Assembly: GCA_944371315.1 (NCBI GenBank)
Contig: CALVXN010000007.1
Span: 1-34,436 of the forward strand
Source of the DNA: an uncultured Bacilli bacterium
GTDB lineage: Bacteria > Bacillota_I > Bacilli_A > RF39 > UBA660
Direction of reading: 5' to 3'
Length of the DNA stretch: 34,436 nucleotides
Shown here in pieces: positions 359 to 4,291 of this stretch (position 1 is the first letter of the stretch; each line of letters opens with the position of its first letter). A model generated the notes under the pieces. It had not been told where the DNA came from. It did no database searches and was given only the letters and a program-made list of their open reading frames with translations. The position numbers and the translations under genes were made by a program.

Positions 359-382
359 CTAGGTGTCCCACTAGGTGTCCCA
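359..382 (+). repeat. Left arm-type sites, two tandem 12-mers
   Basis: CTAGGTGTCCCA is repeated twice in tandem (359-370 and 371-382). The same AGGTGTCCCA core recurs twice with the same 12-bp period and orientation at 9953-9974. Paired repeats at both ends of an element beside a tyrosine recombinase are typical of arm sites bound by the integrase N-terminal domain. The integrase stop codon lies inside the second copy. Confidence 0.75.
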
Positions 383-1576
383 CTTTTTTGAACTTTCTCT
401 AAGATTAGTGCGAAAATTAGTTAGGTCATTTGCTAGAGATATTTTTCTTTCTTTGTACATATGCCCATATTCATTTGATGTAGTCCTAATATCTTTATGT
501 CTTAATCTTGCTTTAATATCTTCTAATGTTTTACCCATATAAATTAGTAAAGCAGCATGACTATGCCTTAATTTATGTGGAGTAATGTTTTTGTCAATTC
601 CTGCGCGTTTTAGATACTTTTTAAGCATATCTCTAATAGCTTTATCGCCTATTACTTCACATTTACCTCTATTATTAGCAAAAAGATATTTACTAGTAAT
701 GTTATGAGCTTTCCTATATTCAAGAAAGGTTTTATATGTTTCAACTGTAATGTCATCGAGAAATAAATCATCCATTGCTTCATCAGTTTTTGCTTTTTGT
801 CTAATTTTACCTTTATAATAGGTTTCAGTAATGTTTAAAGATGTACCTTGTTCTGTAGTAACTATACTATCTGTTGAAAGAGCCAACATCTCACTAATTC
901 TTAAACCAGTATAAAATAGAAGTTGAATAATGAATAAATCTCTAATATTATCCACAACTGATAATAATTGCATAAATTCTTGATAAGTAAGATATTCTTT
1001 TTCTTTTTTTACTTTTTTAAAGTTGCCTACTACACCTGCAGGGTTATAAGGTACTAACTTCTTTCTAACACAATAATTAAGAAAAGCAGATAATTGTTTG
1101 TGAACTTTAATAAGTGTTTGATTACTTAGGCTTTTATCTTTTTCTCGTAAACAAGTCATAGACAATAGATCCTGATGAAACTTATAAATATGTTCTTCTG
1201 AAATTTCAGAAATTTTAACATTACCTAGTTTCGGAAGTATTTGATTTTTAAATATGGCTTTTTTACCATCTACAGTAGATTCGGCTAAATTACCCTTTTT
1301 AACTTCTAATTCACATTCTTTAATATATGAAGCAAAAGCATCTTTAAAAAGACTACCTTTTTTAGGTAGACTATCTAATTGTTTAAATTTTACTCTTTCT
1401 TCGGCTATATAGTTTTGAGCTTCCTTTATAGTTTTTAAATTAATCTTTCTTCTTTTAATTCGTTTATTATATAATTTATCGTATAATGCAAATGCAACTG
1501 CATAAGTTCCATTTGTTTTATGTTTATAGATATAATCATAGTTCGTTTTTTGGTAATCTTCTTTAAAATTAATCAT
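371..1576 (-). CDS. int: Tyrosine recombinase (integrase)
   Basis: A 401-residue site-specific recombinase of the Tn916/phage integrase family, expected to catalyse integration and excision at the 5S core. The N-terminus (about 10-65) looks like an AP2-type arm-binding domain, 75-180 is a SAM-like core-binding domain, and the rest is catalytic. Active-site residues are visible: R226 (TGLRISEM), K263 region, H334 and R337 (TPHKLRHSH), H360 (RLRHKD), and nucleophile Y370 (NEYGHM). The start ATG has a good AGGAGAAG ribosome site. The gene ends within the left arm repeats, so its 3' end is constrained by att DNA. It points leftward, away from the regulators. Confidence 0.95.
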   Translation of the reverse strand: MINFKEDYQKTNYDYIYKHKTNGTYAVAFALYDKLYNKRIKRRKINLKTIKEAQNYIAEERVKFKQLDSLPKKGSLFKDAFASYIKECELEVKKGNLAESTVDGKKAIFKNQILPKLGNVKISEISEEHIYKFHQDLLSMTCLREKDKSLSNQTLIKVHKQLSAFLNYCVRKKLVPYNPAGVVGNFKKVKKEKEYLTYQEFMQLLSVVDNIRDLFIIQLLFYTGLRISEMLALSTDSIVTTEQGTSLNITETYYKGKIRQKAKTDEAMDDLFLDDITVETYKTFLEYRKAHNITSKYLFANNRGKCEVIGDKAIRDMLKKYLKRAGIDKNITPHKLRHSHAALLIYMGKTLEDIKARLRHKDIRTTSNEYGHMYKERKISLANDLTNFRTNLRESSKKWDT

Positions 1577-1614: not shown

Positions 1615-1623
1615 TGCTATAAT
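1615..1623 (+). promoter_or_regulatory. Extended -10 promoter of the small RNA
   Basis: TGCTATAAT is a perfect extended -10 element reading rightward. No good -35 is present, which is acceptable for extended -10 promoters. Transcription would start near 1629-1632. Confidence 0.55.
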
Positions 1624-1628
1624 AGGAG

Positions 1629-1721
1629 TACAGAAAAAAAGTTGTTCTTTGGTAGATTAATTTTTTATTCTGTACGCTATTATTAGCGGTGAGTTAGTGT
1701 TGGCGCACTAGCTCTTTTTTT
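1629..1721 (+). ncRNA. Candidate trans-acting antisense small RNA
   Basis: A rightward intergenic transcript of about 93 nt is predicted between two leftward genes. After the extended -10 box come three stems: GTACAGAA (1628-1635) with TTCTGTAC (1668-1675), extended by A-T pairs across a mismatch and enclosing a 22-nt loop (1641-1662); GCTA/TAGC (1676-1679, 1685-1688); and a terminator stem GAGTTAGTG (1691-1699) with CACTAGCTC (1706-1714), one G-U, then a run of T. Bases 1645-1666, mostly in the first loop, are the exact reverse complement of 2490-2511 in the leader of the excisionase-like gene. Both transcripts come from the same strand, so the RNAs can pair. Promoter, folds and complementarity are seen; function is inferred. 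Confidence 0.65.
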
Positions 1722-1722
1722 A

Positions 1723-2118
1723 TTATTTAATCATATCAATAGTTGTTAATATGTATTTTAGTTTTTGCTTATCTAATTTAGACAATTCACTAAGGCATTT
1801 ATATAGTAATTTACTATCTTCAGAATTATATATTATGTTTTTAATATTTAATAGTAATTTACTTTCTTCTGTATCATCTACTATATGCAAGCTGTCATCA
1901 ATATCATGTTCTTCAGTAAGCATAGGAATTGAAACACCTAAGCATTCTGCAATTGCTTTAATTTTACTTAACTTTGCATAGCAATAACCTTTTTCATAAT
2001 CCCTTATTGAATTATAAGGTATGCCTGTATCATCTTCTATATCCTTCCTACTTTTTCCTTTTAATTTCATATAATATTTAAGATTTTTACTAAAAATTTC
2101 TTTTTTTCTTGTGTTCAT
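1723..2118 (-). CDS. XRE-family (CI-like) repressor
   Basis: A 131-residue protein with an N-terminal helix-turn-helix (about 10-65: IFSKNLKYYMKLKGKSRK, then DIEDDTGIPYNSIRDYEKG) and an acidic to lysine-rich C-terminal region with no protease or metal motif recognised. I start it at MNTRKK because GGAGGGAT sits just upstream and because the longer reading runs into the promoter. It faces a Cro-like gene across a divergent promoter region, the classic layout of a lysogeny-type switch, so it probably keeps excisionase and replication genes silent. Without an S24 peptidase domain, induction probably depends on another signal or protein. Confidence 0.85.
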   Translation of the reverse strand: MNTRKKEIFSKNLKYYMKLKGKSRKDIEDDTGIPYNSIRDYEKGYCYAKLSKIKAIAECLGVSIPMLTEEHDIDDSLHIVDDTEESKLLLNIKNIIYNSEDSKLLYKCLSELSKLDKQKLKYILTTIDMIK

Positions 2119-2138
2119 AGTATCCCTCCGACAAAAAT

Positions 2139-2167
2139 ATAATACCATAAGAAAAATCATTTTTCAA
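2139..2167 (-). promoter_or_regulatory. Promoter of the XRE repressor gene
   Basis: Leftward -35 TTGAAA (complement of 2162-2167), a 17-bp spacer and -10 TATTAT (complement of 2139-2144). It sits about 20 bp before the repressor start codon. Confidence 0.75.
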
Positions 2168-2209
2168 GAGAAAAAAAGTAAAAAAATTATGAAAAATTGC
2201 AAAAATGTA

Positions 2210-2237
2210 TTGACATTAAAAGAAATATAATTATAAT
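2210..2237 (+). promoter_or_regulatory. Promoter of the cro-xis-rep operon
   Basis: TTGACA (2210-2215), a 16-bp spacer, then TATAAT (2232-2237): a near-consensus vegetative promoter. It reads rightward into the Cro-like gene, the excisionase and the helicase. It lies back to back with the repressor promoter. Confidence 0.8.
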
Positions 2238-2282
2238 AGATGGCATATCAACTCATTAAATGGGTTTAGAAAGGAGAAAAAA

Positions 2283-2468
2283 ATGACATTAAAAGATATA
2301 AGAGAAAGTAAAAACTGGTCATTGGAAACAGCTTGTAAAGCCTTCTGTATTGATGCAGAAACACTTATCAACTATGAAACTGGTAAAGAAGTTCCAGATA
2401 TGTGGATATTAGATATCATATTAAATGTGCTTGAATTAGATTATGATGACATTATTTTTGATTCCTAA
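2283..2468 (+). CDS. Small XRE/Cro-like DNA-binding protein
   Basis: A 61-residue protein consisting almost only of a helix-turn-helix domain (MTLKDIRESKNWSLETACKA, then AETLINYETGKEVPDMW), like Cro-type or truncated XRE regulators. An AAAGGAG ribosome site precedes the ATG. It is the first gene after the strong rightward promoter and opposite the larger repressor, so it probably opposes or modulates that repressor. An inverted repeat, CCTAA...TTAGG, overlaps and follows its stop codon (about 2464-2479) and could attenuate or process the message before the excisionase gene. Confidence 0.8.
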   Translation: MTLKDIRESKNWSLETACKAFCIDAETLINYETGKEVPDMWILDIILNVLELDYDDIIFDS

Positions 2469-2489
2469 GTGATTTAGGAAATGAAATGC

Positions 2490-2511
2490 AAAAAATTAAT
2501 CTACCAAAGAA
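2490..2511 (+). promoter_or_regulatory. Small-RNA target in the excisionase leader
   Basis: This 22-nt stretch is the perfect reverse complement of 1645-1666, which lies mainly in the loop of the candidate small RNA. It sits 11 nt before the AAGGAGGA ribosome site (2523-2530) of the excisionase-like gene. The match stops abruptly on both sides. Confidence 0.6.
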
Positions 2512-2538
2512 TAAATTTAAATAAGGAGGACAAGTTTT

Positions 2539-2718
2539 ATGGCTAGTAATATGTTTGATGTTAAACAATTAGCAGAATACTTGAATGTTAGTGTCTCACT
2601 TTTACGAAAACTAGTTCGCCGTAATGAGATACCATACAATAGAATTGGAGTTAAGCTTATGTTTCAGAAGAACGAAATAGATAAATGGTTAAAAGATAAT
2701 ATGAATTCAAATAAATAG
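2539..2718 (+). CDS. xis: Excisionase-like MerR/HTH_17 protein
   Basis: A 59-residue protein, MASNMFDVKQLAEYLNVSVS..., ending in a lysine/asparagine tail. It has the excisionase-family winged-helix pattern: 'VKQLAEYLNVS' for the first helices, then 'LVRRNEIPYNRIG' and 'FQKNEIDKWLK' for the wing and last helix. Such proteins bend att DNA and steer a tyrosine recombinase toward excision. The start has a strong AAGGAGGA site. It lies between the Cro-like gene and the helicase, 20 bp before the latter. Its leader carries the small-RNA target, so it may be controlled after transcription. Confidence 0.8.
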   Translation: MASNMFDVKQLAEYLNVSVSLLRKLVRRNEIPYNRIGVKLMFQKNEIDKWLKDNMNSNK

Positions 2719-2738: not shown

Positions 2739-3866
2739 ATGGATATAAATATTGATAATTTAGTTGCAGATTTGAAAGTTGATTATAAAGACCAGAGTGT
2801 ACTAACAACACCATCACCTGAATTAGAAAAAGTAAACCAGTTTTTTTCTGATATTACTTCTAATGATAAAGGTGTAGAAAATTTGTTATTTCAAATACTG
2901 GGAAATGCCATGTGTAAGACAGCCGTTATGCAAAAAGCCTTTATCTTCAAAGGCAAAGGCAGGAATGGCAAGAGTCGTTTGTTTAGAATACTAGAGGCTA
3001 TTTTGGGAGAACAACAATGTTCTTATGAAACTTTAGAAACTCTTTCGGGAAATAAATCAGGTAGTAAAACAAATGCTAGATTTTTAAAAGGATGTACGGT
3101 TAATATTAGTGAAGACCAGCAACAACCCAGATATATTAATCATTCTATACTTAATAAGATTATATCAGGAGATACTATTTCAGAAATTAAAGGTAAAGAA
3201 AGAATAGTATTTAGACCTTATGCAACAATGTTGTTTTCTGTAAACGATGTGATAGACTTCAAAGAAACTAAAATATGTATTACTGATAGAATCGTAGTCA
3301 TTCAATTCAATTCAACGTTTATTGAAAATCGTAATATTAACATTGAATATGAATTATGCCAACCAAAAGCATTGCAAATAATAGCAACTAGAGCTATTAA
3401 TGCTTTTAAAGAGGTGTTAAAAAATGGGAAATTCACTATACCTCCTGTCGTGGAGTTAGAAACAAACAGATACTTTATGGACTGTAATAATGTGATAGAA
3501 TTCTGTAATTTGTTTCCAATAAAGGAATTTATGGTTAAAGACAGATACCATAAAGAATACTGTAAGTGGTGTGCTTCAAATAATTTAGAAGCCTACAATA
3601 ATGTTAAATTTGGTAAAGAAGTATTAAATTTAGGATATCGTTCTGAAAGATTTACTTTTGGTAGAAAGAAAATCACTTGTTATGTTTCTCCAAATTTTAA
3701 CAATACTGAAAACAAGAATATTTATCATAGATATCTCAAGGAAAATGGTATAAGTGAGGAAGCTGGTAGGATATATGATGAAGCTACATTAGTAGCAACC
3801 TTTGGTATTCCCCCATTTGATGAGTACTTATGGAAATGCAATAACAATACAGAAAATACTAAATAA
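2739..3866 (+). CDS. D5-like SF3 helicase (replication protein)
   Basis: A 375-residue helicase of the phage/plasmid P4/D5 type, expected to unwind the element's origin. Walker A is GKGRNGKS (72-79), the Walker B-like motif is VNISED (121-126), the sensor strand is MLFSVND (164-170) and the likely arginine finger is in DRIVVIQF (R184). A C-terminal winged-helix-like region (about 250-345) follows. The primase domain usual in larger members is absent, so priming must come from the host or this is a helicase-only initiator. Start chosen after GAGGAAAGGA; it is cotranscribed with xis. Origin-like repeats lie directly downstream. Confidence 0.88.
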   Translation: MDINIDNLVADLKVDYKDQSVLTTPSPELEKVNQFFSDITSNDKGVENLLFQILGNAMCKTAVMQKAFIFKGKGRNGKSRLFRILEAILGEQQCSYETLETLSGNKSGSKTNARFLKGCTVNISEDQQQPRYINHSILNKIISGDTISEIKGKERIVFRPYATMLFSVNDVIDFKETKICITDRIVVIQFNSTFIENRNINIEYELCQPKALQIIATRAINAFKEVLKNGKFTIPPVVELETNRYFMDCNNVIEFCNLFPIKEFMVKDRYHKEYCKWCASNNLEAYNNVKFGKEVLNLGYRSERFTFGRKKITCYVSPNFNNTENKNIYHRYLKENGISEEAGRIYDEATLVATFGIPPFDEYLWKCNNNTENTK

Positions 3867-3873
3867 CTCGATA

Positions 3874-4126
3874 ATGCCTCTCCTAGGCTCTGACAGGCTC
3901 TAGGAGAGCTTTTATCATATAGGGCGATAAAAAATTTGTAAAAATAGTTATGCCTCTCCTAGGGTCCCCCTAGTTGCATAAGGAGGTTTTAATAGGGAAG
4001 CCCTAGGAGAAGCATAACTTCATATTTAGGAATATTGCTATGCCACTATGCCACTATGGCATATATAGTATATTTAATTTTAAATTTATAATCAAATATA
4101 AGAAAACTATAGTTATTTCACTATAG
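3874..4126. other. Putative replication origin with iteron-like repeats
   Basis: This non-coding stretch behind the helicase is rich in ordered repeats. ATGCCTCTCCTAGG occurs at 3874-3887 and 3950-3963. A 19-bp inverted repeat with one mismatch spans 3946-3964 and 4001-4019 (AGTTATGC... / ...GCATAACT). Further on are ATGCCACT twice then ATGGCAT (about 4039-4062), and a palindromic ACTATAGTT twice (about 4107-4128), embedded in AT-rich DNA. Repeats next to an SF3 initiator gene are typical of satellite and plasmid origins, which is the basis of the call. Confidence 0.6.
3878..3914 (+). terminator. Hairpin after the helicase gene
   Basis: CTCTCCTAG (3878-3886) pairs perfectly with CTAGGAGAG (3900-3908), followed by CTTTTATC. 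It could end the cro-xis-rep transcript, though the T-tract is short. Its stem also forms part of the origin-like repeats. Confidence 0.5.
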
Positions 4127-4291
4127 TTAATTCTTACTAATTTTTCTAATATCTACTTTACTTTCATTTTCTAAATTATTCTTCTCATTACATTTTGAAT
4201 TATTATTATACTTATTATTTTTTGAATTTGAATTTTGATTATTATTATTGTTGTTATTATGATTACTTATACTATTAGAATTATTTATCAC
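4127..4291 (-). pseudogene. Asn-rich reading-frame remnant
   Basis: The leftward frame reads VINNSNSISNHNNNNNN, then QNSNSKNNKYNNN and a charged tail ending VDIRKISKN. It looks like the Asn-rich C-terminal tail of a larger protein, such as a plasmid or phage replication initiator. No credible start exists: the only candidate is a GTG at 4291 without a ribosome site, and the frame is closed upstream. It may be a truncated gene whose front was lost or replaced by the structured block at 4295-4530, or simply TTA/ATT-rich DNA. Confidence 0.3.

Follow-up and report, generated by a model that had tools for sequence, protein, structure and literature searches.

A predicted antisense RNA family encoded beside integrase genes, with loops matching translation starts of excisionase-like genes

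Excisionase sets the direction of site-specific recombination, and most accounts place its control at the promoter. In the 34,436-nt stretch of DNA from an uncultured Bacilli bacterium analyzed here (contig CALVXN010000007.1; hereafter, the window), a short segment next to an integrase gene recurs in inverted orientation ahead of an excisionase-like gene. This raises the question of whether a small RNA encoded by the element pairs with the excisionase mRNA, or whether the two segments are binding sites for a protein.

A predicted small RNA gene and its complementary site

A preliminary description of this locus, made from the sequence alone, had proposed RNA pairing, and the anatomy that it outlined was recovered here in full. 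The features of the element are the following:

374–1576, minus strand: tyrosine integrase, divergent from the RNA (Pfam Phage_integrase, E 7.9e-25)
1615–1623, plus strand: extended −10 promoter TGcTATAAT (sequence; the −10 hexamer recurs across the family loci)
1628–1721, plus strand: predicted antisense RNA (three hairpins and terminator; fold z −7.4; RNA family with covariation)
1629–1674, plus strand: hairpin 1, bearing the variable recognition loop (fold, covariation, loop comparison)
1645–1666, plus strand: 22-nt antisense segment (exact match; compensatory changes among relatives)
1675–1688, plus strand: hairpin 2 (fold, covariation)
1691–1721, plus strand: intrinsic terminator, stem and T run (terminator search, fold, covariation)
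1723–2118, minus strand: CI-type HTH repressor (Pfam HTH_3)
2210–2237, plus strand: consensus promoter TTGACA-16-TATAAT ahead of the cro-xis-helicase genes (12/12)
2283–2468, plus strand: Cro-type HTH protein (Pfam HTH_3)
2490–2511, plus strand: target site in the xis leader, with an imperfect match to 2518 (exact match; duplex −30.3 kcal/mol)
2523–2530, plus strand: Shine-Dalgarno (SD) sequence of xis (sequence)
2539–2718, plus strand: excisionase (xis), 59 aa (TIGR01764, HTH_17)
2739–3866, plus strand: DUF5906 primase/helicase (Pfam; PHROGs phage primase families)

The segment at 2490–2511 is the exact reverse complement of 1645–1666, as the preliminary description had it, and the 22-mer is the core of a longer inverted repeat (1638–1666 and 2490–2518; 29 nt, 93%) whose match past 2511 is imperfect. 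Both arms are read from the plus strand. The first lies inside the apical part of hairpin 1 of a predicted RNA of ~93 nt, which begins 52 nt from the integrase start codon and is preceded by an extended −10 promoter (TG-N-TATAAT). The fold of 1629–1721 contains the three hairpins that had been claimed (−34 kcal/mol, z −7.4), and none of 200 shuffles folded as well. The strong terminator was found as a terminator-like stem at 1691–1714, followed by seven T. Promoter, stable fold and terminator are, as sequence features, those of a base-pairing small RNA with an intrinsic terminator.

Between the second arm and the SD sequence AAGGAGGA (2523–2530) are 11 nt, in agreement with the position first given, and the ATG at 2539 is 27 nt away, which places the arm upstream of a minimal ribosome footprint. 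The gene behind it had been called excisionase-like, and its product scores 42.6 bits against the TIGR01764 model (‘excise’; cut-off 28.8), which would class it with the excisionases, and also matches Pfam HTH_17.

In the region 189–370, a 5S rRNA gene abuts the integrase end of the element; one is likewise found beside the integrase end in another locus of the family (G199), which suggests that the element inserts next to 5S genes. By eye, a second 5S-like fragment begins near position 80. After the helicase gene is an imperfect palindrome with a GC-rich core (3946–4019; 27 nt, 85%), possibly a replication origin or terminator, and at 4127–4291 the minus strand has an asparagine-rich ORF of low complexity that is probably no real gene.

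An RNA family defined by covariation

A blastn search with 1600–1722 gave matches in 23 of 386 genomes from the taxonomic family of the window. Two-sided changes were seen at 13 of 27 pairs in an alignment of ten copies, from which a covariance model, R1, was built; it matched 33 of the 386 genomes. In an alignment of 30 copies, which was fitted to R1 and is thereby biased towards its structure, 94.9% of the cells were paired and there were 127 two-sided changes versus 35.3 on shuffling (0 of 500), a signal that was lost on sliding the partners. A second model, R2, matched 34 of 385 genomes of the order, 6 of 395 of the class and 2 of 392 of the phylum; the genome samples overlap, and all of these matches are within the family of the window.

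The loci analyzed below are 50 non-redundant ones, all from this family: 35 found with R1 (discovery) and 15 new ones from R2, many of them related, so that they are not independent trials. G192 (RNA identical to that of G199), a reverse-strand shadow in G313, and G327 and G423b (contigs ending at the RNA) were dropped before counting. Across the loci, the promoter, the outer stem, the terminator and usually hairpin 2 form a conserved scaffold, and the loop varies from element to element. The check proposed at the outset, that the two segments should covary in related elements, was carried out: the hairpins covary as RNA, and loops and targets change together. Hairpin covariation and the almost constant spacing of the promoter support an RNA gene, as judged from sequence. 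No Rfam family matched the RNA, either in the window (gathering score) or in six RNA-bearing loci (E 0.1).

Integrase linkage and promoter

A divergent integrase ORF stands beside the RNA at 48 of the 50 loci, 39 of them tyrosine (Phage_integrase) and nine serine (Resolvase/Recombinase) integrases, and 33–66 nt separate the RNA start from the integrase start codon in 47; in G268, the integrase ORF overlaps the RNA. The promoter was no part of the covariance model, yet a −10 hexamer with at least 5/6 matches is found at 48 of the 50 loci (6/6 at 38), mostly 4 nt upstream of the hairpin, and TG precedes it at 38. The two exceptions, G369c and G268, are the likeliest false matches, being predicted RNAs without a promoter.

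This proximity bears on one alternative, namely that the RNA acts, additionally or chiefly, on behalf of the integrase. Were int transcribed through the locus, its leader would be the perfect antisense of the RNA and would therefore titrate it. The distance of merely 33–66 nt fits such a role, as does the finding that, at 35 of the 50 loci, the closest ORF of 60 aa or more beyond the RNA has the same orientation as int. The co-evolution of the loop with xis, described below, is left unexplained by it, and we regard it as improbable as a replacement for pairing with the excisionase mRNA; it could instead be an added layer.

Target sites at translation starts

For each locus, matches to the central part of hairpin 1 were sought in the 5 kb downstream, and the best co-oriented site was set against a reverse-orientation control. 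The best site lay within the initiation region of an ORF with an SD at 25 of the 35 discovery loci (coverage predicts 6.5) and at 12 of the 15 later ones (3.1 predicted), compared with 8 and 2 in the control. Scores of at least 13 were reached at 24 of 35 and 11 of 15 loci, versus 2 and 0 in the control (Wilcoxon p 4e-8 for all 50 loci). The initiation region was taken as −60 to +45; an earlier, narrower definition (site ending between 60 nt upstream and 12 nt downstream of the start codon) was widened because early-codon sites had been noticed at first look, and gave 23 of 35 and 10 of 15. When G-U pairs were allowed, G068 was gained and G257 shifted to an excisionase-like gene. In the ungapped search, G257 and G428 had their best sites near other ORFs, and G428 was assigned its second-ranked, excisionase-like gene.

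In this way, a target was assigned at 38 of the 50 loci. The assigned site is in the initiation region of a gene further downstream, in most cases a small, excisionase-like one. No target was found for the other 12. These include the two loci lacking the promoter, G369c and G268; G196 (L085) and G419 (L116), which have promoter and terminator, lack an intact integrase ORF and are likely element remnants; and G423a, which runs off its contig. For the remaining seven (G010, G317, G205a, G225, G329, G087 and G008), the absence is not explained by promoter, integrase or contig end; G010 has a 16-nt match to which no gene could be assigned, and G008 a 12-nt match ahead of an ORF without a clear SD.

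The preliminary description had admitted a single rival to RNA pairing, namely paired protein-binding sites. In this reading, the two arms would be bound as DNA, for instance as integrase arm sites or by Xis or the repressor, and the hairpin would have no role of its own. Inverted site pairs do occur near int and xis, but this rival fits poorly. The match is found in one orientation only, with the reverse-orientation control near background; hairpins 1–3 covary as RNA; promoter and terminator are at fixed places; and the sites are at translation starts, some of them within codons. Moreover, the 22-mer occurs at only two places in the window even when three mismatches are allowed (shuffling expects 0.02 matches), with no third copy. 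Orientation control, third-copy search and RNA covariation all being against it, we rejected the protein-site reading as highly unlikely.

Searches outside the cellular genomes gave a few further cases. Pattern searches of IMG/VR returned three contigs with R2 matches (E 4e-12, 6e-6 and 0.001), each with a divergent ORF that by eye reads as an integrase; the top target was excisionase-like in two (−30.5 and −25.5), and none was found in the third. Neither the exact 22-mer nor a relative of the helicase was found among viral contigs, and blastn with 1600–1722 gave no match among GenBank phages. In three phages with distant integrases (L134–L136), the best model match had an E of 0.068, and no convincing match of the region upstream of int to a translation start was found: the best co-oriented scores were 11, 11 and 15, the last an SD-like stretch, and the reverse controls 10, 11 and 15. 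By eye, a sequence resembling a −10 element and a hairpin resembling a terminator point away from int in two of the three, L135 and L136 (phages of Listeria and Hujiaoplasma); these features are without homology to the window RNA and could be unrelated small RNAs.

Loop and target change together

In a swap of all 38 RNAs against all 38 targets, the mean duplex energy was −28.9 kcal/mol for cognate pairs versus −14.6 kcal/mol for swapped ones, and 20,000 permutations never went below −18.4 (for G372, which has two sites, the one at the HTH gene was used). The cognate target ranked best for 30 of the 38 RNAs and the cognate RNA for 31 of the 38 targets; in the eight RNAs for which a swapped target was stronger, several of the exchanges were between related loops.

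Divergence of the two segments without compensation had been named as one observation that would count against pairing. In seven close relatives, whose integrases are 77–85% identical to that of the window, the RNA base differed in 101 cases (element pair by loop column), of which 75 were compensated in the target, one kept its pair through a one-sided change and 25 were unpaired in at least one element. For example, the window loop GGTAG is GCTAG in G090, and the G090 target is altered to match. Among these relatives, the identity of the loop was 0.73, compared with 0.85 for the remaining RNA. Pairing of the RNA with its cognate target is strongly supported by these sequence comparisons, and a translation-start site that co-varies with the loop, assigned at 38 of 50 loci, is a further mark of a base-pairing small RNA.

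Proposed mechanism and alternatives

These results are, very probably, explained by a family of element-specific antisense RNAs that repress translation of the excisionase, a recombination directionality factor. A short antisense RNA would be made from the extended −10 promoter back to back with the integrase gene, and the apical part of its hairpin 1 would pair with the excisionase mRNA in the region where its translation begins. Since loop and target sites are 0.6–4 kb apart on one strand, pairing would be in trans. The duplex would block ribosome loading or invite RNase III, so that, in the integrated state, leaky excisionase mRNA would yield little protein and excision would require strong induction of the cro-xis operon. 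On the conserved scaffold, the loop co-evolves with the target of its own element. Of the claim that excision is under RNA control, the pairing of loop and target is supported by the 38-pair swap and the compensations; that the RNA is transcribed, that it represses rather than activates, and that it helps to keep the element integrated are effects that we infer. Against the explanation as a whole stand the 12 loci for which no target was found and the eight RNAs with a stronger swapped partner.

The claim extended to the helicase behind xis, an effect that in the window would follow from gene order. Only G372 (L035) offers more: its RNA appears to have a second target, since, besides a site within the initial codons of an HTH gene, the helicase leader bears a 19-nt perfect match of its own.

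Whether the RNA might activate xis translation instead, by unfolding the leader or shielding the mRNA, has to be considered, as activating sRNAs can bind upstream of the SD, where the window site is. The leader of the window does not exceed its shuffles in structure (z 0.07), and over the 38 leaders, the SD region without the RNA is on average 0.59 unpaired. Furthermore, the predicted duplex overlaps −35 to +20 of the start codon in 36 of the 38 cases, spans the SD window in 17 and covers early codons in several, and pairing over the SD or early codons usually blocks initiation. The accessible SD region and the unstructured leader would make a block of initiation likelier than activation, which we consider quite unlikely. 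In the window itself, the core stops 27 nt short of the ATG, so that occlusion of upstream ribosome contacts or RNase III cleavage would be likelier than direct masking of the SD.

The RNA could also, by analogy, act on transcription, causing early termination in the xis-helicase leader; the antisense RNA of satellite phage P4 is described as shutting off replication genes in this manner (PMC4825925), and the window element likewise has a replication-type helicase behind xis. The targets, however, lie next to the SD or the first codons of a single small gene and not at a terminator, and the only clear hairpin in the fold of the window leader is located before the target. We hold this to be unlikely, and repression of translation is retained as the preferred mechanism.

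Comparison with known antisense RNAs

The antisense RNAs of the CopA/CopT type, which control plasmid copy number, have a conserved stem-loop and a variable recognition loop that sets specificity classes. The family described here shares, with this general picture, the conserved stem-loop and variable loop. CopA/CopT RNAs differ in that the replication genes to which they are cis-antisense share their locus, whereas loop and target are here separate loci.

Among phage RNAs, the C4 antisense RNA of P1 and P7, reportedly described by Citron and Schuster in 1990, is one point of comparison. To our knowledge, neither integrase linkage nor loop changes between elements are part of that system. Like the window RNA, C4 is a small antisense RNA encoded by the phage that keeps a prophage function (ant) off by pairing (PMC8198154); it differs in that C4 controls ant genes, whereas the predicted target of the window RNA is an excisionase. 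Membership in the C4 class was rejected: no curated antisense-RNA model of Rfam matched at the thresholds given above, and the targets are mostly small excisionase-like genes rather than antirepressors.

The CI RNA of P4 also resembles the window RNA, pairing with complementary leader sites and keeping the replication genes of an integrated element off; it is processed from a primary transcript and acts by transcription termination (PMC4825925), whereas the window RNA has its own predicted promoter and is matched to a translation start. The sRNAs of conjugative elements, RteR of CTnDOT among them, are similar in that an element-encoded sRNA restrains mobility. RteR represses the tra operon, and the accessible part of the source describes no excisionase target (PMC9299015). 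We found no report of an sRNA pairing with an excisionase mRNA in a literature search that covered subscription papers thinly and so does not prove absence. Because none of these phage and conjugative-element RNAs is described, in the accounts cited, with an excisionase as target and no Rfam family matches, the integrase linkage, the targets and the re-aimed loops make this family unusual.

Target proteins and candidate directionality factors

Thirty-four target proteins were scanned, of which nine matched HTH_17, eight phrog_66 (‘excisionase and transcriptional regulator’), seven TIGR01764 and four the ICEBs1 excisionase model, in sets that may overlap. Most of the other targets beside tyrosine integrases are 60–100 aa long and would be excisionase-like by size, position and resemblance. 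The targets beside serine integrases (35–106 aa) are mostly without a known family and without a known excision function. With the exception of a SpoVG-like protein at G369b, we propose them as candidate directionality factors. At five serine-integrase loci (G060, G187, G190, G432a and G502), a related leader was seen ahead of differing small ORFs, themselves candidate directionality factors.

The directionality factors of serine integrases are hard to predict, since those known share little homology and differ in size and location (PMC5311408). The loop, in turn, names one candidate directionality-factor gene per element, which is directly assayable. It seems somewhat more probable than its contrary that the RNA is a modular cassette, combined with unrelated tyrosine and serine integrases, whose one loop is re-aimed at the directionality-factor gene of each element as a general excision lock. 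If so, the loops would define element-specific specificity classes akin to plasmid incompatibility groups, and reading them would reveal unknown directionality factors of serine integrases. The family would control excisionase post-transcriptionally in elements with two unrelated integrase classes, and its co-changing loop–target pairs form a natural set of RNA regulators that may be orthogonal.
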